Shown one piece after another: positions 3,984 through 13,587 of a stretch of 64,000 nucleotides of DNA (positions within the stretch are counted from its first letter, which is position 1; the number at the start of each line of letters is the position of its first letter). Below the pieces are notes generated by a model, which saw only the letters and a list, made by a program, of their open reading frames with translations, searched no databases and had not been told where the DNA came from. This DNA comes from Halobacillus kuroshimensis DSM 18393 (GTDB lineage Bacteria > Bacillota > Bacilli > Bacillales > Halobacillaceae), in NCBI RefSeq assembly GCF_000425705.1, contig NZ_AUDY01000014.1:124001-188000 (forward strand). The letters run 5' to 3'. The position numbers were made by a program, and so were the translations under genes.

Positions 3984-4126
3984 TAATTATATATCCAGTC
4001 TTCCGGGTTGTCAACACAAAACAAATGATTTTGGAAAAAGGGAAAAATTTTGGCTGGCATCCTTAAGAATAGGTGCCTTGGAGCGGCACATAATAAGATT
4101 GTTCCACATGTGAGGAGGCGATTGAG

Positions 4127-4309
4127 ATGGGCAGAGATGAACATCACAAAGGAAAAGGGAAGCAGAAACGAAAACTTCCGCAGACTCCTAAAAGTCAAAA
4201 ACATGCGAACATCGATGTTGAGTTTTCTGAAGAACTGGCTGACAGGGAAGATAAGATTGCTCAAGAACGAGCGAAAGCGGCCGACCGCAGAGCTCACAAA
4301 CGTATGTAA
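4127..4309 (+). CDS. YfhD-like small basic protein
   Basis: A 60-residue, very hydrophilic protein beginning MGRDEHHKGKGKQKRKLPQ, followed by an acidic segment with FSEELAD and a basic tail. The arrangement (MGR start, LPQTPK, the EFSEELAD block, repeated alanine/arginine) matches YfhD-like proteins of Bacillus from memory. The function is unknown; expression in late growth or sporulation has been suggested for the family. The start follows GAGGAGGCG. It is a single gene with its own terminator at 4317. Confidence 0.7.
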   Translation: MGRDEHHKGKGKQKRKLPQTPKSQKHANIDVEFSEELADREDKIAQERAKAADRRAHKRM

Positions 4310-4316
4310 AAAAACA

Positions 4317-4351
4317 ACAGCCTTCAGGTTTCATCCTGAAGGCTGTTTTTG
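4317..4351 (+). terminator. Rho-independent terminator
   Basis: ACAGCCTTCAGG pairs with CCTGAAGGCTGT across a 6-base loop, followed by TTTTTG. It ends the YfhD-like gene. Confidence 0.9.
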
Positions 4352-4379
4352 TATATATTATTTATACAGAATAAATTGT

Positions 4380-4407
4380 TTGAACTTAATTATGTTTATG
4401 GTATAAT
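4380..4407 (+). promoter_or_regulatory. Sigma-A promoter for the betaine-binding protein
   Basis: TTGAAC (4380-4385), a 16-base spacer and TATAAT (4402-4407) lie about 60 bp before the start at 4466. Confidence 0.65.
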
Positions 4408-4465
4408 TCAAAATTGTGAGTGAAATTCATAAGGAATGAATGAATGTTTTAAAGGAGGCGTTCGT

Positions 4466-5353
4466 ATGAAACAGTGGAAAAAGTGGCTGCCCGTTTTTCT
4501 AATGGCCGGTTTGATCGTATTGACGGCCTGTGGAGAATCCACAGAGGAAAGCGTCACAGAAGCAGGCAGTGATGATGATAAAGGTACAATACATATTGGA
4601 ATGAATAACTGGGCTGAGAATGTGGCTGTATCAAACATGTGGAAGCTTATTCTTGAAGATAAAGGATATACGGTGGAACTGGAACAGGTTGAAAAAGGCT
4701 TTTTATATGAAGCACTAGCAAGTGGTGACCTCGACATTGGAACAGAAATCTGGCTTCCGAATACAGACCAGCCTTTTTATGAAAAATATGAAGATGAGAT
4801 CGATTGGCGCGAGACATGGTATGAGGGAACGGAACTTGGTTTGGCTGTCCCGGCTTATATGGAAGATATCAATACTATAGAGGATCTGAAAAGCACAGAT
4901 CAGTTTTCCGACAATCAGATTGTAGGGATTTCTGCCGGAGCAAGCATTATGAATTTGACGGAGGAAGCCATTAAAGAATACGACTTGGACTATTCCCTGC
5001 TTTCTTCTGGAGAGCCGACAATGATTACAGAACTGAAAAATGCCATGGCTGATGAAGAGCCGATTGTAGCGACACTTTGGAAGCCGCACTGGGTCTTTGC
5101 AGAAATGGATGTGAAGATTCTGGAAGATACGAAAAATGTTTATGGGGACTCTGAAAATATTTCCTATGCTGCAAGACTTGGGTTGAAAGAGGACCATCCA
5201 GAAGTGGTGAAATGGTGGGACAGCTTCAAGCTTGATGACAATCAGCTTGGAAGTCTCATGGCTTCCATAAATGAAGCGGATTCTGAGGAAGAAGGTGCCC
5301 GTCAATGGTTGGATGAGCATCAGGATCTCGTAAATGAATGGACAGAAGAATAA
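4466..5353 (+). CDS. Glycine betaine/proline-type ABC substrate-binding lipoprotein
   Basis: A 295-residue exported lipoprotein. The signal peptide ends in the lipobox LTAC (Cys about residue 22), followed by an acidic linker. The mature part is an OpuAC/ProX-type binding domain: INWGMNNWAEN-like N-terminus (here IGMNNWAENVAVSNMW), IWLPNTDQPFY, TLWKPHWVFAEMD. Aromatic residues in these motifs form the cage that binds quaternary amines. It normally works with an ATPase and permease of an Opu system, but neither is adjacent. The start follows AAAGGAGG; an ATG 30 bases earlier is ignored. It may supply a distant transporter or be an osmosensing orphan. Its own promoter and terminator make it a single-gene unit. 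Confidence 0.85.
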   Translation: MKQWKKWLPVFLMAGLIVLTACGESTEESVTEAGSDDDKGTIHIGMNNWAENVAVSNMWKLILEDKGYTVELEQVEKGFLYEALASGDLDIGTEIWLPNTDQPFYEKYEDEIDWRETWYEGTELGLAVPAYMEDINTIEDLKSTDQFSDNQIVGISAGASIMNLTEEAIKEYDLDYSLLSSGEPTMITELKNAMADEEPIVATLWKPHWVFAEMDVKILEDTKNVYGDSENISYAARLGLKEDHPEVVKWWDSFKLDDNQLGSLMASINEADSEEEGARQWLDEHQDLVNEWTEE

Positions 5354-5388
5354 ATAGGAATAGAACTGCCCCTCGGGCGGATCTCCCG

Positions 5389-5420
5389 GCTGCCGATTAT
5401 CCTATCGGCAGCTTTTTTTT
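5389..5420 (+). terminator. Rho-independent terminator
   Basis: GCTGCCGAT pairs with ATCGGCAGC across TATCCT and is followed by eight T residues. It ends the betaine-binding gene. Confidence 0.9.
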
Positions 5421-5469
5421 AGGGGACTTTTCCGCTGCCGGAAGCTCAGCTGGATCGTTTCTTGTTTAA

Positions 5470-5646
5470 AATAGATATGGGTTACCCGTCGGAACCACGC
5501 TCCTGCGGATTCGTAGGTATGGCTGGGGAATCCAAGCCTTCCTGCTTCCTTACGGAGGGATAGACCTCACCGAACAGGAGACAAAACAGTTCGCAGACCA
5601 GCTGGATGGATTGAAGAAGCAGCTTGCATGCAGAAAAGAAGTTTAA
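5470..5646 (+). pseudogene. Possible decayed gene fragment (C-terminal piece)
   Basis: In the 290-bp space before the VLRF1 gene one frame stays open for 58 codons and reads like protein ([14 protein letters not shown], then LTEQETKQFADQLDGLKKQL) up to TAA 5644-5646. It has no ATG, GTG or TTG before its middle and no ribosome binding site. It begins straight after an in-frame TAA at 5467. The most economical reading is the tail of a gene whose 5' part has been lost. I cannot name the family. It could also be chance. Confidence 0.35.
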
Positions 5647-5711
5647 GCGCTCATCTTTCAGGAAACATAGACAATATAGCTAGTTGAACTATTGAAAGGA
5701 GTCGCTGAATT

Positions 5712-6518
5712 ATGGATTTAAACAAAGAATTAGAGAAATTAGAGCATATTCACTTAGAAAAGCCACAAAAAGTATTTACGATGTACTTGAATACAGATCC
5801 ATCCGACCCTGATCAACAAGGCGGCGAATGGAAAATTCATTTGAAGAATGGACTGAACAACTTTGAATCCTATCTGCAGGAAGATGGGGACTCAGATGAA
5901 AAAAGAAACTACTGGGCAGTCAAAGAAAAGGTTGAAACCTTCATAGAAGAAAACGAGCAGCATTTTGCAAAAAGTGTCGTATTGTTTGCTACAGGTGATG
6001 ATACGGTCTGGTTTGCTGAAAGGTTCCAGATGCCGGTTAAGACTGAATTCTACTGGGAGGAAGCTCCAGTGTTGGATCAGCTGAAGGAAATGCAGCAGAA
6101 ATTCCCGAAAACGGGTGTCGTCCTGACTCAGAAAAACCAGATTAAACTGCTGGATGCTGAACTGGGAACGTTGAAGGATACACAATTGTTTGAGCTTGAC
6201 CTGAATACAGAGGATTGGCGCATGCATCAAGGGCCTGACAGAGCCCAGGCGTCCATGGGTTCAGGAGGAGCGAAGAATTCGAAGCAGGATCAGTTTGAAG
6301 AGCGCTTCGAAGCCAATCGTTACCGTTGGTATAAGAGCGTAGCTCCAAAAATTGACCGCGCCGCTAAACAATACGGCTGGGAGCGCTTCTACCTCGTTGG
6401 TGACAAGGAAGAATTGAAAGACCTTCAGGACCATATGAACAAGGAAGCTGAAGACATGATTAACAAAAACCTTCTGGACCATGAAGAAATGCATGTGCTC
6501 GATGAGGTTGTCCAATAA
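5712..6518 (+). CDS. VLRF1-family aeRF1-like protein
   Basis: A 268-residue soluble protein of the bacterial archaeo-eukaryotic release-factor-like group (baeRF/VLRF1). It shows the N-terminal FTMYLNTDPSD block, a central acidic helix region, and a C-terminal domain with RYRWYKSVAPKIDR and RFYLVGDKEEL, which resembles the eL30/aeRF1 middle region. Members are thought to act on stalled ribosomes or peptidyl-tRNA, but the role in bacilli is not settled. The start follows GAAAGGAG. It stands alone and ends in a clear terminator. The family assignment is from motif memory. Confidence 0.75.
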   Translation: MDLNKELEKLEHIHLEKPQKVFTMYLNTDPSDPDQQGGEWKIHLKNGLNNFESYLQEDGDSDEKRNYWAVKEKVETFIEENEQHFAKSVVLFATGDDTVWFAERFQMPVKTEFYWEEAPVLDQLKEMQQKFPKTGVVLTQKNQIKLLDAELGTLKDTQLFELDLNTEDWRMHQGPDRAQASMGSGGAKNSKQDQFEERFEANRYRWYKSVAPKIDRAAKQYGWERFYLVGDKEELKDLQDHMNKEAEDMINKNLLDHEEMHVLDEVVQ

Positions 6519-6527
6519 TTTCTTACA

Positions 6528-6554
6528 AAAGCACCGGGGAGACCGGTGCTTTTT
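6528..6554 (+). terminator. Rho-independent terminator
   Basis: AGCACCGG pairs with CCGGTGCT across GGAGA and is followed by TTTT, after the VLRF1 gene. Confidence 0.85.
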
Positions 6555-6690
6555 CATGTGTCATTTTATACATACCATCCAAACTGAATATGGGCCGGCA
6601 CAGGCACGTTTAATCTTACCATTATACAGATTTTCAAAGGCTATGGTAAAATAGTATACAGCGAAAATAAATGAGATTGGGGAAATGAAC

Positions 6691-6996
6691 ATGTTTGTTG
6701 TAGACTCCACTGTAGTGGTGCCGGAACACAAAGCTGATGATCTCATTCAGATTTATCGGAATCGCTCTCGCCTCGTAGATGAAGCAGAGGGATTTTTATC
6801 TTTTCAGCTTCTCCAAAACGATCGGAAGCCGGGAGAGTTGACGGTTCACTTGGAGTGGGAATCTAAACAAGCTTATTTGAATTGGGCAAGAAGTGAGCAG
6901 TTCAAGAAAATTCATGAGCTTGAAAAACAGTACCCTGACGAAGATTTGAAGGGAATTGTTCCAATAGTGAAGAAGTATGAGGTGGTGGCAACATGA
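6691..6996 (+). CDS. ABM-fold (antibiotic biosynthesis monooxygenase-like) protein, first gene of the B12/STAS operon
   Basis: A 101-residue single-domain protein with the ferredoxin-like ABM layout: strand FVVDSTVVVP, helix ADDLIQIYRNRSRLV, then EGFLSFQLLQN, ELTVHLEWESKQAYLNW and SEQFKKIHEL. The Trp in LNWARS and the His in KKIHE sit where IsdG-type haem oxygenases have two of their three catalytic residues. The N-terminal Asn of that triad is not evident. A haem-degrading or small-molecule-sensing role is therefore possible but unproven. ATG 6691 is preferred over ATG 6685, because GGGG at 6679-6682 is then 8 bases away. It overlaps the next gene by four bases (ATGA) and heads a four-gene operon. 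Confidence 0.75.
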   Translation: MFVVDSTVVVPEHKADDLIQIYRNRSRLVDEAEGFLSFQLLQNDRKPGELTVHLEWESKQAYLNWARSEQFKKIHELEKQYPDEDLKGIVPIVKKYEVVAT

Positions 6997-7361
6997 ATCA
7001 CACGGAGCAGGCCCACCTTGTCCGGACCGTAACAGAAGAAATCTATGAAGCCTATCCTTACCTTTGGGAAAAATTCGGCCAAAACGGGAGAGACCGGACC
7101 GAAGAAGACAATCATCATCATTTGGACCATCTGGCTGCGGCTTACGAGATGAGAAGTGTAGACTTTTTTATGGACTATACGGACTGGCTCAACAATGTAT
7201 TGACATCCAGAAACGTGCCGACCGGACTGATTATTGATAATTTTCAGCGGCTCGTCCGACTGCTCGATGGACAGTCTCTTGTGGATGAGGACGAGAAGCG
7301 GATGTTCATCGTCTATTTAGAACAGGCTCTCAAACGACTTCATACTCTGAACGAGAGGTGA
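6993..7361 (+). CDS. Unknown helical protein, second gene of the B12/STAS operon
   Basis: A 122-residue, probably all-helical soluble protein. It has an amphipathic N-terminus (VRTVTEEIYEAYPYLWEKF), a histidine-rich stretch EDNHHHLDHLAAAYE (about residues 39-53), DFFMDYTDWLNNVL and a leucine-rich C-terminal helix (FIVYLEQALKRLHTL). I do not recognise a named family. The layout recalls small helical sensor modules found next to or fused with B12 or STAS domains, but that is memory only. The start is within the overlap ATGA and has an excellent site (GAGGTGG). Tight coupling to both neighbours suggests that it works with them, perhaps as a scaffold or second sensor. Confidence 0.8.
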   Translation: MNHTEQAHLVRTVTEEIYEAYPYLWEKFGQNGRDRTEEDNHHHLDHLAAAYEMRSVDFFMDYTDWLNNVLTSRNVPTGLIIDNFQRLVRLLDGQSLVDEDEKRMFIVYLEQALKRLHTLNER

Positions 7362-7366
7362 CTATT

Positions 7367-8026
7367 TTGGATCTGCATCATGAACAACTCGCTCAAGTTT
7401 TTTTGAGTGGAGATGAAGAGAAGGCATTGAACTACACGTATCGTCTCCTGGAGAATCATCCAAGAGCCTACGTGTTTGAAAACCTGATCACTCCGGCAAT
7501 GTACCACGTGGGGAAGCTGTGGGAGAATAATGAAATATCGGTTGCGGATGAGCATCTGGCTACAGCCATATGTGATTTTGTTCTTTCAAAAATCGAGTCT
7601 GATCACGAGGTTCCTAAACGCCGGCAGCAGCAAAGTTATAAGGTCCTTCTCTTCGGAGTGGAAGAGGAGCAGCATTATATCGGGCTGAAAATGGTCGCCG
7701 ACACTTTTAAAGAACATGGCTGGCGGGTCCGTTATTTAGGGCCGGATCTTCCAATGGAACATTCCATGTTACAAATTAGAAAATTCCAGCCCGATGTAAT
7801 AGGAATATCAGCGGCTTTGTCCTACCGTATTCCTGCCATAAAGAAATCCATCGAGGCCTTCACCCAGCTGGAGTGGAAGCCGACCATCATGATCGGGGGC
7901 CGTCTTGCTTATAAATTTGACTTGTCGGAGTTTGAATCCGACCAGGTTATGGTGATTAAAAATATCGGACATCTGACGCATTGGTTTAAAGAAGGAAGGG
8001 AAGAATCCATCAATGAAACGAGTTGA
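7367..8026 (+). CDS. Free-standing CarH-like cobalamin-binding protein
   Basis: A 219-residue protein with the two-part cobalamin module and nothing else. The N-terminal four-helix bundle (about 1-75) contains Wx9EH (W52, E62, H63), the signature by which CarH/LitR photoreceptors cap adenosylcobalamin. The C-terminal Rossmann-like domain (about 90-215) has ExxHxxG (E100, H103, G106), whose His takes the lower axial position in CarH, plus the later GG at 177-178. CarH also carries a MerR-type DNA-binding domain, absent here. TTG 7367 is preferred over GTG 7358, because GAGAGGTGA lies just before it. It overlaps the downstream STAS gene by 14 bases. Light or cobalamin sensing through a partner protein is inferred. 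Confidence 0.85.
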   Translation: MDLHHEQLAQVFLSGDEEKALNYTYRLLENHPRAYVFENLITPAMYHVGKLWENNEISVADEHLATAICDFVLSKIESDHEVPKRRQQQSYKVLLFGVEEEQHYIGLKMVADTFKEHGWRVRYLGPDLPMEHSMLQIRKFQPDVIGISAALSYRIPAIKKSIEAFTQLEWKPTIMIGGRLAYKFDLSEFESDQVMVIKNIGHLTHWFKEGREESINETS

Positions 8027-8777
8027 CCATTCTTTTCCTCTGCCCGTTTTTACAATCAACAAAAATTTCATGCTGCAATCTTATTCCAAGGAAGCAGAAG
8101 ACAGCTTTGTCATCCCGCAGAACTTCCTGGACTTATTTGATGAAGGCAGTCTTTCCAAACTGAAAAAATGGATCCATCCGGAAGTGAAAAAGGTAACACT
8201 GGAAGCCCAGCTGAAGCCTTTTGGAAAAGCAAGTAACCCCGTAACGTGTGATCTGCACGTCAAATGGAGTAATGACCTTTATGCAGAAGTTCTGCTCATA
8301 TTGAAGGATGACCAGATGGAGCGTGTCACAACGATGATGAATCAACTGCGCGCCCGCCTGAATGATACGAACTTTCAACTCCTTGAGGAAAAAGAAAAAC
8401 TGGAGGAAGCGTTGGAGCTGAACAACCGTCTTTCGGCTCCTTTTATTACTCTTACAGAGGAAACGGCGTTGATCCCTTTGTTCGGTGATTTATCCCTGGA
8501 TAAAATGGATGTCGTCGAAGAACCGCTGCTTCAAAGGATCAATCAAGGTGGTATTGAACGGGTGCTGCTGGATTTTACTGCCGTTGGAGATATTCCGAAA
8601 GACGGAGCCCAGGCTTTGAAAAGTTTGACCGCTTCCTTATTTTATATGGGAGCCTCCGTTGTCATTACAGGAGTACGGCCTGAACAGGTTCCAAAACTCC
8701 AGAATATCCGTTTTCCTATTGAAGTTTCTTATCTTCATTCCCTTCAACAGGCCATTTACAAATACTGTGTGCAGTAA
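8013..8777 (+). CDS. PAS-like/STAS-domain protein (RsbR-type)
   Basis: A 254-residue protein in three parts. An N-terminal PAS-like region covers about residues 8-110 (FPLPVFTINKNF, ILKDDQMERV). A coiled coil follows (about 110-140, rich in E, L and N), then a C-terminal STAS domain (about 143-254: APFITLTEETALIPLFGDL, VLLDFTAVGDIPKDGAQAL, GASVVITGVRPEQV). This is the layout of RsbR-type stressosome proteins and of YtvA. By eye alignment, the position of the RsbR phospho-threonine in VDTAVA is occupied by PK, so RsbT-type phosphorylation there seems unlikely. The start is well supported by AAGGAAGGGAAG. It is translationally coupled to the cobalamin protein, which suggests it is the output. 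Confidence 0.82.
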   Translation: MKRVDHSFPLPVFTINKNFMLQSYSKEAEDSFVIPQNFLDLFDEGSLSKLKKWIHPEVKKVTLEAQLKPFGKASNPVTCDLHVKWSNDLYAEVLLILKDDQMERVTTMMNQLRARLNDTNFQLLEEKEKLEEALELNNRLSAPFITLTEETALIPLFGDLSLDKMDVVEEPLLQRINQGGIERVLLDFTAVGDIPKDGAQALKSLTASLFYMGASVVITGVRPEQVPKLQNIRFPIEVSYLHSLQQAIYKYCVQ

Positions 8778-8866
8778 AACGCTGCTTTCTGCTGATTTCC
8801 GGTTTATTCCCCTTTTCCAATGTGGAATAGATAAAGTAAACGAGAAAATAGAAAGGGTGTTTTGTA

Positions 8867-9073
8867 ATGGAAATGACGCTTGAAGTGAACGGTATGACAT
8901 GTGGGCACTGCCAGAAAACGGTTAAAGATACAGTTGAAAATCTTGAAGGTGTGCACGGAGCAGAGGTTCATCTCGACAGTGGTAAGGTCAATGTGGTGTA
9001 CGACGAAGCCTATGTCGGTAAAAATCTAATTAAAGAATCCATCCATGCCCAAGGGTATGAGGTAGTTGGATAA
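8867..9073 (+). CDS. copZ: Copper chaperone CopZ-like (HMA domain)
   Basis: A 68-residue heavy-metal-associated domain with the metal loop MTCGHCQKTV (Cys 13 and Cys 16), which binds Cu(I), and the usual tail HAQGYEVV. Such chaperones hand copper to a P-type ATPase and to the CsoR repressor. Neither copA nor csoR is adjacent here, so it is a solo copy. The start follows GAAAGGGTG at a normal distance. A strong terminator follows. Confidence 0.88.
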   Translation: MEMTLEVNGMTCGHCQKTVKDTVENLEGVHGAEVHLDSGKVNVVYDEAYVGKNLIKESIHAQGYEVVG

Positions 9074-9104
9074 CGATAAAGGTCCTGGCTTTCCAGGCCT
9101 ATTC

Positions 9105-9137
9105 AAGCTGTCGAGAAGGTTCTCGACAGCTTTTTTT
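9105..9137 (+). terminator. Rho-independent terminator
   Basis: AAGCTGTCGAGA pairs with TCTCGACAGCTT across AGGT and is followed by TTTTTT, after copZ. Confidence 0.9.
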
Positions 9138-9202
9138 ATGGATTCAGAGCAGGATAGGGAGACGGGATGATGGACGTAAGCCACCTTACTCACGGACTCA
9201 AC

Positions 9203-9238
9203 AGTAAGAAAAGCCCGGGGTCCCGGGCTTTTCTTACT
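9203..9238 (-). terminator. Terminator of the spore-coat gene pair
   Basis: A 17-bp perfect stem (9203-9219 with 9222-9238), GC-rich at the tip and A/T-rich at the base, contains the stop codon of the minus-strand CotF-like gene. The T-rich arm on the minus strand (TTTTCTTACT) fits termination of that transcript. Confidence 0.75.
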
Positions 9239-9569
9239 GCACTGTATAGGGAAGCTGTGTTTGATAACCGGAAAATTTCTGGTAGGCCTGGTCAAGCTTT
9301 TGGTTCTCTTCCTGCTCCAGAGCATACCATCCATGTTTGAACATGAGGTTATACAGGTTTCTCTGACAGTCCTGTGTTTCCTTGAAGATGGTTGCCAGAT
9401 CCTGATAAATTGCTTGGTTACTCGCCTCATTCAATGCTGTGCTGTACGACGATGTCATGTACTTCTCCGTAGCCAGAAGATCGTTAACGAAATCCCGCTC
9501 ATTCATCTGCGGTGTCTGTGGTACAGTCGTTTCAGGGTTTTGAATTTTTTGTGGTTGGTTCGGATTCAT
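9234..9569 (-). CDS. Spore coat protein CotF-family
   Basis: A 111-residue protein with a proline- and glutamine-rich N-terminus and a helical CotF domain: NERDFVNDLLATEKYMTSSYSTAL, ATIFKETQDCQRNLYNLMF, GWYALEQ. The pattern of a ferritin-like two-helix coat protein (DLLATEK, QRNLYNLM, GWY) is diagnostic of CotF/YraG-type proteins deposited on the spore. The start chosen is ATG 9569, which has GAGGAGG; an in-frame upstream ATG is ignored. It lies 11 bases downstream of the second coat-like gene and is probably cotranscribed with it in the mother cell late in sporulation. Confidence 0.85.
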   Translation of the reverse strand: MNPNQPQKIQNPETTVPQTPQMNERDFVNDLLATEKYMTSSYSTALNEASNQAIYQDLATIFKETQDCQRNLYNLMFKHGWYALEQEENQKLDQAYQKFSGYQTQLPYTVQ

Positions 9570-9580
9570 AACGGACCTCC

Positions 9581-9844
9581 TCAATTCGGTTTATTGGCTT
9601 GTGTATTCAAGTGCTCCAGGATTTTATTGTAGTGACGCTGGTGCATTTGGCCGGCTTCGTCCAGCGCCGCCTGGATTTCGGGGGTTTGACAATTTTGAGC
9701 GAAAAAATGAGCTTTTTTACAAGCATTTAAATTCCAGGAAAGCATGTCTGCAAGGTATAGTTGATCTTTTATGGTCACAACATCAGGGGCCTGAGCCATC
9801 GGCTGTGCGCCCTGCATGGACCCGGTTGCTGGGTTCTGCTGCAT
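9581..9844 (-). CDS. Small spore-coat-associated protein (CotF-operon partner)
   Basis: An 87-residue protein with a low-complexity N-terminus (MQ, GA and PA repeats) and one helical region (TIKDQLYLADMLSWNLNAC, HFFAQNCQTPEIQAAL, HYNKILEHL). The helices resemble the first half of CotF-like proteins and the YraD/YraF small coat proteins. The start follows AAGGGAGGG. It is the first gene of a two-gene unit with the CotF-like gene 11 bases downstream. A spore-coat role is inferred from the pairing. Confidence 0.75.
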   Translation of the reverse strand: MQQNPATGSMQGAQPMAQAPDVVTIKDQLYLADMLSWNLNACKKAHFFAQNCQTPEIQAALDEAGQMHQRHYNKILEHLNTQANKPN

Positions 9845-10041
9845 GGAACTCCCTCCTTTATGTTTTCCCTGTTAGTATGGCTGTTTGAGGATGAAGTATA
9901 AACGAAAGATGGGGTTTATTTGTCGAATATGAGATGAAAATATTCACCCTTTTTTAAGAAAAATGATAAAATAGAATCACAAACGTTTACATTTCTAAAA
10001 ATTATAAATGTTCTACTCACCATCAGTCAGGGGGCTTAATG

Positions 10042-10959
10042 ATGGAAAAGGTGATGCGCAATTTCTTTCTTTTTTTATCGAAAAACCGTTTCTTTACAAA
10101 GCTTGCGAAAAAATATGGACTCCGTTTTGGTGCCGGTAAGTTTGTCGCTGGTGTTTCTGTACCTGATGCTGTGAGAACCATCCGGATTTTGAATGACCAG
10201 GGTATGGCAGTCACGATTGACCACCTTGGCGAGTTCATTGACAGTGAGGCAGAAGCCAGAGAAGCAGCGGAGGGGTGTATCGCTGCGATTGAAGCCATAG
10301 CAGAATATCATTTGGATTCACAACTTTCCCTTAAACTGACGTCCATGGGGCTGGATATTTCCGAATCGCTTGTGATGGAGAACATGAGGAAGATCCTTGG
10401 TGCGGCAGAAAAAAATGATGTGTTTGTGACCATTGATATGGAAGATTACGAACGCTGCGGCAGAACTCTGAAGATTTTCAAGCAGTTGAGGGAGGAGTAT
10501 GACCATATTGGAACCGTCCTCCAGTCGTATTTATACCGGACGGTCGAAGATATAGAATCACTGGATGAGTATTCCCCGAATCTGAGACTTGTGAAAGGAG
10601 CCTATAAGGAATCCGCCAAAGTGGCTTTCCCCGATAAGAAAGACGTGGATGACAACTTAAAGAAAATTATCCGGATCCACTTGATGAATGGCCATTATAC
10701 AGCAGTAGCTACCCATGATGATGAAATGATCGAGTATACAAAGAAATTGGTGGAGGATGGAGGCATATCAAAGGATCAGTTCGAATTTCAAATGCTGTAC
10801 GGAATTCGAGTGGAACGTCAGAAAGAACTGGTGGAGGAAGGTTATAAAATGCGTGTGTATGTACCTTATGGGAATGATTGGTATGGATACTTCATGCGCC
10901 GTCTCGCAGAACGGCCGGCAAACGTCGCTTTCGTGCTAAAAGGAGTATTTGGCAGATGA
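10042..10959 (+). CDS. Proline dehydrogenase (FadM/PutB type)
   Basis: A 305-residue FAD-dependent proline dehydrogenase, the monofunctional Gram-positive form that oxidises proline to pyrroline-5-carboxylate. Barrel motifs visible are TIDHLGEF, LSLKLTSMGLDIS, VTIDMEDYERC, LRLVKGAYKE, VATHDDEMI and EFQMLYGIR, then RVYVPYG and the C-terminal YFMRRLAERPANV. No pyrroline-5-carboxylate dehydrogenase is adjacent. ATG 10042 has AGGGGG at the right distance. As in B. subtilis (yusM/fadM), it sits beside fadN-fadA-fadE, although a 225-bp gap with its own FadR operator separates them. A weak hairpin with a T-run follows the stop. Confidence 0.9.
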   Translation: MEKVMRNFFLFLSKNRFFTKLAKKYGLRFGAGKFVAGVSVPDAVRTIRILNDQGMAVTIDHLGEFIDSEAEAREAAEGCIAAIEAIAEYHLDSQLSLKLTSMGLDISESLVMENMRKILGAAEKNDVFVTIDMEDYERCGRTLKIFKQLREEYDHIGTVLQSYLYRTVEDIESLDEYSPNLRLVKGAYKESAKVAFPDKKDVDDNLKKIIRIHLMNGHYTAVATHDDEMIEYTKKLVEDGGISKDQFEFQMLYGIRVERQKELVEEGYKMRVYVPYGNDWYGYFMRRLAERPANVAFVLKGVFGR

Positions 10960-11146
10960 GGAAGGGCTGTCCCCCACCGTCTTTCCTTTTTTTAATCAAA
11001 ACCGGCCGAACGCTCATACACTAACATAACGAAATGGACTTGGAAGAATTTTTAAGATTTATGGAGAAAAGGATTGCGAAATGTCTGAATATATTTTATA
11101 TTAGACATAGATACCGGATCAGCACTATATTTTTTTGACCGTAAAA

Positions 11147-11164
11147 TGAATGAGTATTCATTCA
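11147..11164 (+). promoter_or_regulatory. FadR operator
   Basis: TGAATGAGTATTCATTCA matches the B. subtilis FadR box TGAATGAnTAnTCATTCA at every defined position. It ends 20 bp before the fadN start at 11185, where it would block elongation or initiation until long-chain acyl-CoA is present. Confidence 0.9.
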
Positions 11165-11184
11165 AAGAGATAGGGGGAGAAATG

Positions 11185-13587
11185 ATGAATCAAAAAATTA
11201 AACGGGCTGCAGTTTTAGGCTCAGGGGTGATGGGGGCCGGCATTGCTGCCCACCTGGCCAACACAGGAATCCCTGTGCTGATGATGGACATCGCACCCCG
11301 GGAATTATCCGAACAGGAAAAGAGTAAAGGGTTGACGATCGAACATCCAGCGGTACGAAATCGTATAGCCGCTGAGAATAAGAGAGCGCTTCTAAAGCAG
11401 AAGCCGTCCCCGCTGACAAGTAAAAAAAATCTCGATTTGATCGAAACGGGCAACTTTACCGATGATATGAGCCGTCTGGGCGAGGTCGACTGGATCATCG
11501 AAGTCGTTGTCGAAAACCTGGATATCAAAAAGAAAGTGCTCGCAGAAGTAGATCAATACCGTAAGCCCGGTTCGATTGTAAGCTCCAATACATCAGGCAT
11601 TTCCATTGAGGCCATGTCTGCAGACTGCAGCGATGATTTTAAGAAGCATTTTCTCGGGACGCATTTCTTCAACCCGCCGCGTTACTTGAAGCTGCTGGAG
11701 GTTATTCCGACAGCTTCGACGGACCCGGGCGTCCTTTCGTTTATGAAGACGTTTGGTGAGGATGTGCTTGGTAAAGGTGTGGTGGAAGCCAAGGATACAC
11801 CGAACTTTATTGCCAATCGTATCGGTACGTACGGCCTCCTCATCACCGTTCAGAAAATGCTTGAAAAAGGGTACTCGGTCGGAGAAGTGGATTCGGTTAC
11901 TGGTCCATTGATCGGCCGGCCGAAAAGCGCAACCTTCCGTACGCTTGATGTTGTAGGTCTGGATACCTTTATCCATGTCGCCAACAATGTTTATGAACAG
12001 GTGGAAGGTAAAGAGAAGAAAGCCTTTGAAGTTCCTGGATTCATGACAGCGATGCTTGAAAAAGGATGGCTCGGATCAAAAAGCGGTCAAGGATTCTTCC
12101 TGAAGAATAAAACAGCAGAAGGCAGCGAGATTCTTCAGTTGAATCCTGAAACGCTTGATTATGAGCCGCGTGGAAAATTAAAAACAAAAGCAACAGAAGC
12201 AGCCAAACAAGAGAAAGGCCTGCACCGCAAGCTCAAAACCCTTGTTCAGGCAGAAGGAGATCGTGCCGGTGACTTGATCTGGTCCATCATCAAACCGGTG
12301 CTTCTGTATTCAGGAGAATTGGCAGGAGAAATAGCTGATGATATTTCTGCTATTGACGATGCCATGAAGTGGGGTTTCGGCTGGGAAGCAGGTCCATTCG
12401 AAATATGGGACGCTGTTGGTGTTGAATCCTCCGTTGAACGGATGAAGGCCGAAGGGGAAACGGTTCCTTCATGGGTGGAGCAACTGGTCGATCATAAGAA
12501 TCCTTCCTTTTATAAACATGAAAATGGAAACGTTTACTACTACCACAATGGGGAGTACAAAGAGAAGGTCTTTAATAAAAAACAAATCAATTTGAAGCGT
12601 CTGAAAGAGAAAACAGATGTGATTAAGAAAAATGCGGGTGCGAGCCTCATTGACTTAGGTGATGGAGTCGCTGCTCTCGAATTCCATTCCCGAAGCAATG
12701 CGATAGGGCTGGATATTGTACAGATGATGAACTTCGCTGTGGATTACGTAGATGAGAATGACTGGCACGGCCTCGTCGTCGGCAACCAGGCGAAGAACTT
12801 CTGTGTTGGTGCCAACCTCGGCATGATGCTGATGGAGGCTCAGGATTACAATTTCTTTGAGATTGAAATGGTCGTAAAGAACTTCCAGGACAGCATGATG
12901 AAACTGAAGTATTCTGATAAGCCGGTCGTTGCAGCACCATTTGGAATGACGCTTGGCGGAGGAGCGGAAGTCTGCCTTCCGTCTGCTGCGATTCAAGCCT
13001 CTCCAGAGACGTACATGGGTCTTGTGGAAACAGGAGTCGGGCTGATCCCCGGCGGTGGTGGTAACAAGGAGCTGTATATCAAACACCTGCGGAATATCCC
13101 TGAGGGTGTGGAGGTTGACCTTCAAAAGGCGGCCGTCAGTGTCTTTGAAAAAATTGCGATGGCTAAAGTATCTACTTCTGGAGAAGAAGCTCTTGAAAAC
13201 GGATTTTTAGATCAAAGAGATGCAGTAAGTACGAACGGAGATCATTTGCTGCATGATGCTAAGCAGAAGGTTCTTGGTCTGGCCGGTTCTGGATACAAAG
13301 CACCAAAGCGGACGAAGGTCCCCGTCACAGGAGAACAAGGGCTGGCTACAATGATTCTTGGGGCGAAGTCTCTCGTTTTAAGCGGATACGCAAGTGAGCA
13401 TGACATGAAAATTGCTGAAAAGCTGGCCTTTGTACTGGCTGGCGGACGATTGAAACAGGGGACACTCGTTGATGAGCAGTATTTGCTTGACTTGGAGAGA
13501 GAGGCGTTCCTCAGCCTGATTGGTGAGCCGAAGTCACAGGCTCGTATGCAGCACATGCTTATGAAAGGAAAACCGCTCCGTAACTAA
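11185..13587 (+). CDS. fadN: 3-hydroxyacyl-CoA dehydrogenase / enoyl-CoA hydratase
   Basis: An 800-residue bifunctional beta-oxidation enzyme. The N-terminal NAD-binding domain starts with VLGSGVMGAGIAAHLAN. The dehydrogenase active-site region carries HFFNPPRYLKLLE, followed by the C-terminal 3HCDH helices. The last third is a crotonase domain (about residues 495-720) with the oxyanion-hole segments NFCVGANLGMMLM and GMTLGGGAEVCLPS. It hydrates enoyl-CoA and oxidises the hydroxyacyl-CoA. ATG 11185 (or 11182) follows AGGGGGAG; an upstream ATG at 11146 falls inside the FadR box and is rejected. First gene of fadN-fadA-fadE, repressed by FadR. Confidence 0.93.
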   Translation: MNQKIKRAAVLGSGVMGAGIAAHLANTGIPVLMMDIAPRELSEQEKSKGLTIEHPAVRNRIAAENKRALLKQKPSPLTSKKNLDLIETGNFTDDMSRLGEVDWIIEVVVENLDIKKKVLAEVDQYRKPGSIVSSNTSGISIEAMSADCSDDFKKHFLGTHFFNPPRYLKLLEVIPTASTDPGVLSFMKTFGEDVLGKGVVEAKDTPNFIANRIGTYGLLITVQKMLEKGYSVGEVDSVTGPLIGRPKSATFRTLDVVGLDTFIHVANNVYEQVEGKEKKAFEVPGFMTAMLEKGWLGSKSGQGFFLKNKTAEGSEILQLNPETLDYEPRGKLKTKATEAAKQEKGLHRKLKTLVQAEGDRAGDLIWSIIKPVLLYSGELAGEIADDISAIDDAMKWGFGWEAGPFEIWDAVGVESSVERMKAEGETVPSWVEQLVDHKNPSFYKHENGNVYYYHNGEYKEKVFNKKQINLKRLKEKTDVIKKNAGASLIDLGDGVAALEFHSRSNAIGLDIVQMMNFAVDYVDENDWHGLVVGNQAKNFCVGANLGMMLMEAQDYNFFEIEMVVKNFQDSMMKLKYSDKPVVAAPFGMTLGGGAEVCLPSAAIQASPETYMGLVETGVGLIPGGGGNKELYIKHLRNIPEGVEVDLQKAAVSVFEKIAMAKVSTSGEEALENGFLDQRDAVSTNGDHLLHDAKQKVLGLAGSGYKAPKRTKVPVTGEQGLATMILGAKSLVLSGYASEHDMKIAEKLAFVLAGGRLKQGTLVDEQYLLDLEREAFLSLIGEPKSQARMQHMLMKGKPLRN

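Follow-up and report, generated by a model that had tools for sequence, protein, structure and literature searches.

Two photocobilin proteins were characterised in 2024, and photocobilins were shown to be bilin/B12 sensors; photoglobins are said to have been proposed as bilin/B12 sensors by Schneider et al. in 2022. The photocobilin SasPcob was predicted to be linked with STAS and PP2C proteins, and regulation by protein-protein contact was shown, as far as the available part of that report goes (PMC10979010). According to the accessible sections of another study, the globin BBAG-2 binds biliverdin, and BBAG-2 clusters are associated with heme oxygenase (HO) (PMC10151467). Red light is reported to activate SigB in B. 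subtilis and Listeria through a receptor that the available portion of the source presents as not settled (PMC3019169). Here we describe a four-gene operon of Halobacillus kuroshimensis DSM 18393, located in a window of 64,000 nucleotides (contig NZ_AUDY01000014.1, positions 124,001 to 188,000). Judged from sequence, its second and third genes encode, with high confidence, a photocobilin split over two genes.

A globin and a B12 module encoded by separate genes

ORF and Pfam analysis of the window located four open reading frames on one strand at 6685-8777, which encode an ABM protein, a helical protein of 122 amino acids, a B12 protein and a STAS protein. We regard genes 2 and 3 as a split photocobilin because the bilin contacts of the globin and the light signature of the B12 domain are both kept; the two modules, which form a single polypeptide in a photocobilin, lie here on two genes.

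The gene 2 protein matched no Pfam family above chance, and an earlier sequence-only reading of this DNA had left it as an unknown helical protein. Its profile, its fold and its invariant bilin contacts indicate that it is a photoglobin, the biliverdin-binding type of globin found in photocobilins; the bilin half of the system had thus been missed. Profile A1, made from 29 gene 2 orthologues and searched against the PDB sequences, returned at E < 0.01 only the globin domain of SasPcob (8j2x, 0.0043; 8j2w, 0.0045), the next matches being chance-like at E of at least 0.22. The AlphaFold2 model is all-helical (predicted local distance difference test, pLDDT, 95.9). Foldseek ranks 1-17 for this model are taken by phycobiliproteins, the photocobilin SasPcob and an entry titled bacterial fluorescent protein, with a template modelling score (TM-score) by query of up to 0.77 and a best E of 4.5e-3, and heme globins rank lower. 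Asp39 and Trp65 are invariant in 122/122 distinct photoglobin sequences (counts over distinct sequences, here and below, draw on loci L012-L041, L072-L118, L121 and L129-L201, with L119 left out). They correspond to SasPcob Asp270 and Trp296, which the available text of PMC10979010 gives as key biliverdin contacts; the numbering offset was verified on Trp61, His72 and His108. Residue 36, three positions before Asp39, is Thr in 85, Cys in 36 and Ala in 1 of the 122 sequences, and SasPcob also has Thr at the matching position. The attachment motif of phycobiliproteins is C-x-R-D in the part of PMC10151467 available. As the Cys-type photoglobins share this spacing, bilin may be bound covalently in those genera.

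The gene 3 protein contains B12 domains only in Pfam (PF02607, 5.1e-15; PF02310, 8.1e-16), with no DNA-binding domain found, and its best PDB matches are again SasPcob (8j2w/8j2x, 5.5e-18). Trp52 is kept in 107/109, Glu62-His63 in 108/109 and His103 in 108/109 distinct B12 sequences, the remainder being gaps; these residues correspond to SasPcob Trp61, Glu71-His72 and His108. Gene 3 is thus predicted to encode a photocobilin/CarH-type B12 module with the light signature (W, EH and axial His). That it is CarH-like and free of a DNA-binding domain had been read correctly before, and the light-signature residues can now be added. A CarH-type repressor was rejected for gene 3 as the DNA-binding (MerR) domain is missing; the NCBIfam CarH model matches from position 85 only, with 55 bits against a cut-off of 400. 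Two PduO-type adenosyltransferases are encoded in the genome, so that synthesis of adenosylcobalamin (AdoCbl) is possible in principle.

The four genes and the ABM fold of the first (PF03992) stand as first read. The accompanying statement that all four overlap or touch holds for genes 1 and 2, which overlap by 4 nucleotides, and for genes 3 and 4, whose overlap of 14 bases recurs in 30/30 family loci, but genes 2 and 3 are near-touching only. The start of gene 3 is more likely TTG 7367 than GTG 7358; this TTG lies 5 nucleotides past the end of gene 2 and is preceded by GAGAGGTGA, and with it genes 2 and 3 therefore nearly touch without overlap. Orthologues of the ABM protein begin at the second ATG, 6691. 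The coordinates are collected in Table 1.

Table 1. Positions of the operon features in the window.
Feature	Position	Strand	Basis or remark
Gene 1, ABM-fold protein, IsdG/HmoB-like	6685..6996	+	PF03992 1.9e-16; A4 profile matches; candidate heme monooxygenase or bilin-handling protein
Gene 2, predicted photoglobin, bilin-binding-type globin, 122 amino acids	6993..7361	+	Profile, AlphaFold2, Foldseek
Gene 3, predicted stand-alone CarH/photocobilin-type B12-binding protein, 219 amino acids	7367..8026	+	TTG start; PF02607, PF02310
Gene 4, PAS-like/long helix/STAS output protein	8013..8777	+	PF01740; YtvA-like fold
Gene 3/gene 4 overlap, 14 nucleotides	8013..8026	+	Equal length in 30/30 family loci
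Likely promoter, extended -10, sigma-A type	6623..6652	+	Consensus match on conserved block
Asp39 codon (SasPcob Asp270, contacts bilin pyrroles)	7107..7109	+	Alignment
Trp65 codon (SasPcob Trp296, packs on bilin ring D)	7185..7187	+	Alignment

The PAS-STAS and ABM genes and the distribution of the operon

The gene 4 protein consists of a PAS-like domain (about residues 1-100), a long helix (102-140) and a STAS domain (149-234). The STAS domain matches PF01740 at 1.2e-5 and NCBIfam YtvA_fam at 1.6e-13, the latter below its cut-off. The gene 4 profile A3 matches RsbR and YtvA chains at 1e-9 to 6e-12, and an RsbR-type C-terminal STAS is present. In the model of gene 4 (pLDDT 79; predicted template modelling score, pTM, 0.46) a PAS-like domain at the N-terminus is followed by a long helix, and Foldseek placed full-length YtvA first (2mwg, E 1.8e-9), with PAS domains further down. 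Inspection of the sequence for NCRF indicated that the LOV cysteine/NCRFLQ flavin motif is absent. The partner had previously been called PAS-like/STAS of the RsbR type; its STAS domain is indeed of the RsbR/YtvA type, but the phospho-acceptor positions of RsbR are missing.

The genome has a sigB module (L123) with RsbR, RsbS, RsbT, RsbU, RsbV, RsbW, SigB and an RsbX-like protein. Pfam identified RsbV, RsbU and SigB, the STAS profile identified RsbR and RsbS, and the others were recognised by inspection. RsbT was found in 37/37 PAS-STAS genomes tested; the RsbT counts cover only genomes with PAS-STAS, helical-tail or kinase outputs. Among the three kinase-output genomes, RsbT is strong in one, a weak match in one and not found in one. 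This distribution fits a stressosome output and is no proof of it, and we put a sigma-B output of gene 4 at about even. In one genus, a second RsbS-like/RsbT-like pair and a STAS-only protein of 154 amino acids occur about 3-7 kb from the operon (L241:8371-12509); the second RsbT-like gene of that genus is about 6 kb away, and its RsbS-like neighbour was seen in the one genome opened.

Profile A4 of gene 1 matches IsdG, IsdI, HmoB and MhuD-type chains at E 3e-7 to 5e-4. With the IsdG numbering and its catalytic Asn-Trp-His triad as we take them to map on gene 1, Trp67 is kept in 111/116 and His77 in 115/116 distinct sequences; the full triad of IsdG/HmoB is not present, as gene 1 keeps Trp and His and replaces Asn by Ser. 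No HO-1 family heme oxygenase (PF01126) was found in this genome, which has five ABM-family matches, one of them HmoB-like by inspection. The ABM gene precedes the globin gene in 49/52 sampled loci (one of these 49 is degenerate). A role of the ABM protein as a bilin-supplying enzyme is plausible, and another protein could supply the bilin; we place the ABM protein as the actual bilin source somewhat under even.

Conservation of the gene order outside this strain had been set beforehand as a check on the locus, and it was borne out. The order and the overlaps of 4 and 14 nucleotides are identical in 30/30 loci of the same family (the window counted), in which the gap between genes 2 and 3 varies from 2 to 21 nucleotides. 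A profile search with gene 2 found the ABM-globin-B12-STAS order in 69/70 named-genome loci, which share some genomes with the 30 family loci, the remaining one having the globin alone. The genera concerned include Halobacillus, Pontibacillus, Thalassobacillus, Sporosarcina, Planococcus, Virgibacillus, Evansella, Alkalihalobacillus and others. The photoglobin profile was matched in 160/397 sampled genomes (50/135 genera) of the order to which the window belongs. In the phylum sample it was matched in 8/398 genomes, which are the genome of the window, two of the order and five of one other family in the class.

All five loci of that other family (L236-L240), which we guess from sequence to be Paenibacillaceae on the Paenibacillales side, encode globin and B12 domains on one protein of 359-363 amino acids. 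The globin comes first, so that the domain order equals the order of the split genes 2 and 3. One of these loci has an ABM gene directly upstream, and four continue with a gene of 561-571 amino acids, a hybrid histidine kinase in the one case scanned with Pfam.

Photoglobin loci sampled mostly at one per genus (n = 52) showed how the parts are combined. B12 and full-length PAS-STAS genes adjoin the globin in 30 (28 with ABM, 2 without), three have B12 and PAS-histidine kinase genes ahead of ABM-globin, and in four a B12 gene is present but a full-length PAS-STAS gene is not; ABM-globin stands with no B12 gene nearby in 14, and the globin is alone in one. A split-type B12 gene was present elsewhere in 13 of the 15 globin genomes without an adjacent one (E 5e-46 or better), and in 1 of the 20 globin-free genomes listed (p 9e-7 by Fisher's test, with no correction for relatedness). 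Each of the 13 unlinked B12 genes adjoins a PAS-coil gene, which is PAS-STAS in eight (one in two pieces) and PAS with a helical tail in five. This co-occurrence and the PAS-coil neighbours indicate that [ABM-globin] and [B12-PAS] act as the two modules of a single system.

What stays the same beside the B12 gene is the PAS-coil, and different outputs are attached to it. In L087:4671-5774, L090:2568-3674 and L105:2568-3674 the PAS-coil is fused to a histidine kinase, with the order B12, PAS-kinase, ABM, globin; the kinase was called from HisKA-HATPase by Pfam in L087 and by similarity in L090 and L105. A PAS-coil with a short helical tail lies beside the B12 gene in L211:823-1464, L213:805-1467, L218:2167-2811, L220:2262-2759, L221:2181-2723 and L222:833-1459; these tails resemble the phosphotransfer helices of the PAS-kinases and have no ATPase domain. 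STAS matches next to B12 genes were at first all taken for STAS proteins; this was rejected, as profile A3 also matches the PAS-coil alone. The B12 gene is interrupted in L083 and L121 and the PAS-STAS gene is in two pieces in L210, through decay or sequencing error.

The likely promoter coincides with the best-conserved block across 23 aligned Halobacillus upstream regions; promoter-consensus matches around the operon are no more numerous than in shuffles. No sigma-B-type promoter box was seen by eye in the alignment of these 23 regions, and no B12 riboswitch or other known RNA reached the gathering threshold in window positions 4000-12000. The B12 protein had no tblastn match at 1e-20 in the plasmid collection, a search for mobile origin in which phages and viral contigs were not included. 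Upstream of the operon (5712-6518) lies a baeRF-family protein (PF18846, 1.4e-49) with weak likeness to a ribosome hibernation factor, and downstream (8867-9073) a CopZ-like copper chaperone (PF00403; NCBIfam chaper_CopZ_Bs 84 bits, cut-off 91).

Proposed mechanism and competing explanations

What the parts are, and that they are conserved, coupled and co-occurring, is observed; each functional step of the following pathway is inferred. The ABM protein would convert heme to a bilin or hand a bilin on, and the photoglobin would hold it non-covalently in the manner of SasPcob, as the conserved contact residues suggest. The photoglobin would then dock on the B12 protein and bring bilin and AdoCbl edge to edge, so that either red or green light would break the Co-C bond; such docking is proposed because of SasPcob and the Paenibacillales-side fusions. 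By analogy, loss of the adenosyl group would cause the B12 dimer to rearrange or dissociate. Direct contact would alter the PAS-coil of gene 4, a step that we propose because the genes are coupled and the PAS-coil is the constant part beside the B12 gene. The STAS domain would finally relay the signal to the stressosome/RsbT and then to sigma-B. We consider it moderately probable that the operon encodes a light sensor of the split photocobilin kind whose output is a STAS domain, and that the whole of this mechanism holds. The sequence-only reading had suggested a light- or B12-dependent pathway to STAS in two proteins. The B12 module, the STAS partner, their tight coupling and the sigB module in the genome agree with it, but it lacked the bilin half, and the number of proteins should be three or four, as the photoglobin and the ABM gene belong to the sensor.

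Several observations weigh against this pathway. The sequence match of gene 2 to the SasPcob globin is modest (E 0.004), and none of the Foldseek matches of its model falls below 0.001 (best E 4.5e-3). The ABM protein has Ser8 (113/116) where IsdG has the catalytic Asn7, and it scores far below the NCBIfam heme-oxygenase cut-offs (45.1 vs 130). The PAS assignment comes mainly from the model, Pfam giving a PAS domain at E 0.015 in 1/29 members. At the positions of RsbR Thr171 and Thr205 gene 4 has Leu and Lys, which are no phospho-acceptors, and of 130 rows, counted with duplicates, 16 and 5 have Ser or Thr there. RsbT is not specific to PAS-STAS genomes, as it also occurs in 5/5 helical-tail genomes and strongly in 1/3 kinase-output genomes. 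A simple stressosome input is further countered by the histidine kinase or kinase-like helical tail that the same PAS receiver carries in some genera. Two of the 15 globin genomes, G312 and G130, have no split-type B12 gene, and G060 has such a gene and no globin.

The lack of conserved phospho-acceptors would suit a photoreceptor that works as proposed and whose STAS partner is something other than the stressosome, RsbT or sigma-B. The histidine kinase output of three sampled loci, the kinase-like helical tails in the five unlinked cases and G060, and the hybrid kinase that follows the fused Paenibacillales-side versions in four of five loci (one Pfam-scanned) point the same way. On the other hand, the YtvA of this genome, with D and E at the RsbR Thr171/Thr205 positions, likewise has no acceptors; YtvA-type STAS domains also lack these sites, and YtvA acts in the stressosome according to the available part of PMC8508746. 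RsbT is present in all 37 PAS-STAS genomes, and of the three kinase genomes one has none and one a weak match. Such a different partner is a real possibility that we hold at clearly less than even. We judge it unlikely that the B12 protein alone acts as a CarH-like green-light sensor on STAS, with the globin and ABM protein in structural or heme-related roles and no bilin involved. AbPcob, with His for Asp270, binds bilin weakly and is still light-regulated via AdoCbl in the accessible text of PMC10979010, the genome has no HO-1 family enzyme and the ABM Asn is replaced, all as such a sensor would allow. However, Asp39 and Trp65 never vary in the 122 sequences, and the Cys at the C-x-x-D attachment position in 36 of them is sensible only with a bilin in the pocket, which argues against it.

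The B12 protein might also report cobalamin or redox status (AdoCbl sufficiency or its oxidative loss) rather than light. Many of the organisms concerned are non-phototrophic, the AdoCbl level can be reported by cobalamin proteins, and the genome already has a real LOV-STAS YtvA. The CarH light signature is nevertheless retained in full (Trp, Glu-His and axial His), and a globin of the light-pigment type is the constant partner, which makes a status sensor quite improbable in our view. A corrinoid methyltransferase module of the MtaC/MtbC type with unrelated neighbours is extremely improbable. Gene 3 does match MtbC, MtaC and MtgC weakly (E 1e-10 to 1e-7), but all of these scores are far under the cut-offs, no methyltransferase adjoins the gene, the CarH signature is kept and the closest PDB chains are photocobilins; this candidate was rejected on the scores and the neighbours.

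Returning to the split photocobilin, its widest form is a light input to the general stress response of Bacillales that is self-sufficient and broad-spectrum, and a possible red/green-light receptor for sigma-B in these genera, which we offer only tentatively and rate as rather unlikely. There, the IsdG-like enzyme would make a dedicated, perhaps non-canonical bilin, and the photoglobin would serve as an antenna for the AdoCbl held by a separate protein, bound covalently to its bilin in Cys-type genera and non-covalently in Halobacillus. The complex would switch a PAS receiver with interchangeable STAS or kinase output. The photoglobin in this order is mostly found beside the ABM gene, and B12 and PAS-STAS genes are often present as well. 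If the proposal is true, bilin/B12 light sensing would be common in non-photosynthetic Bacillales, with its own candidate bilin-making enzyme, and the sensor would feed stress or kinase pathways via a modular PAS protein. The separate polypeptides would give a natural two-part red/green optogenetic pair.

Comparison with known systems

CarH and LitR share the B12 domain and its light signature with gene 3, which differs from them in lacking a MerR DNA-binding domain. This genome also has a MerR-B12 gene elsewhere (C1, L122:3941-4840), which is CarH-like and scores below the CarH cut-off. YtvA (LOV-STAS) has, like gene 4, an N-terminal PAS-type domain, a helical linker and a STAS domain and is its best full-length fold match. 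Unlike YtvA, gene 4 does not have the NCRFLQ flavin motif, and its sensing would be via partner proteins. A true LOV-STAS YtvA is encoded elsewhere in the genome (C10, L126:2453-3777, YtvA_fam 348.9 bits), beside another ABM-fold gene. With the MerR-B12 gene and YtvA besides the operon, the genome therefore has at least three candidate photoreceptors. IsdG and HmoB share with gene 1 the ABM fold and the equivalents of Trp67 and His77, whereas gene 1 has Ser for Asn7 and stays below the NCBIfam cut-offs.

The BBAG-2 clusters likewise have separate globin and B12-binding genes, as described in the available part of PMC10151467. They differ in that theirs come with HO and a pre-PcyA reductase, whereas an ABM-fold protein and a STAS output are found here. 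The closest relatives are the photocobilins SasPcob and AbDPcob, whose B12 domain shows the same W/EH/axial His and whose globin has the Asp270/Trp296 equivalents, as far as can be taken from the accessible part of PMC10979010. In contrast to these, the operon has two genes, globin then B12, with ABM upstream and PAS-STAS downstream. A description of the four-gene operon was not found in the literature searched, of which parts of the texts were available, and Schneider et al. 2022 may list photoglobin-B12-STAS neighbourhoods. Within that body of text, the combination of a split photocobilin, an ABM partner and a PAS-STAS output, with conservation on this scale in Bacillales, is apparently new.

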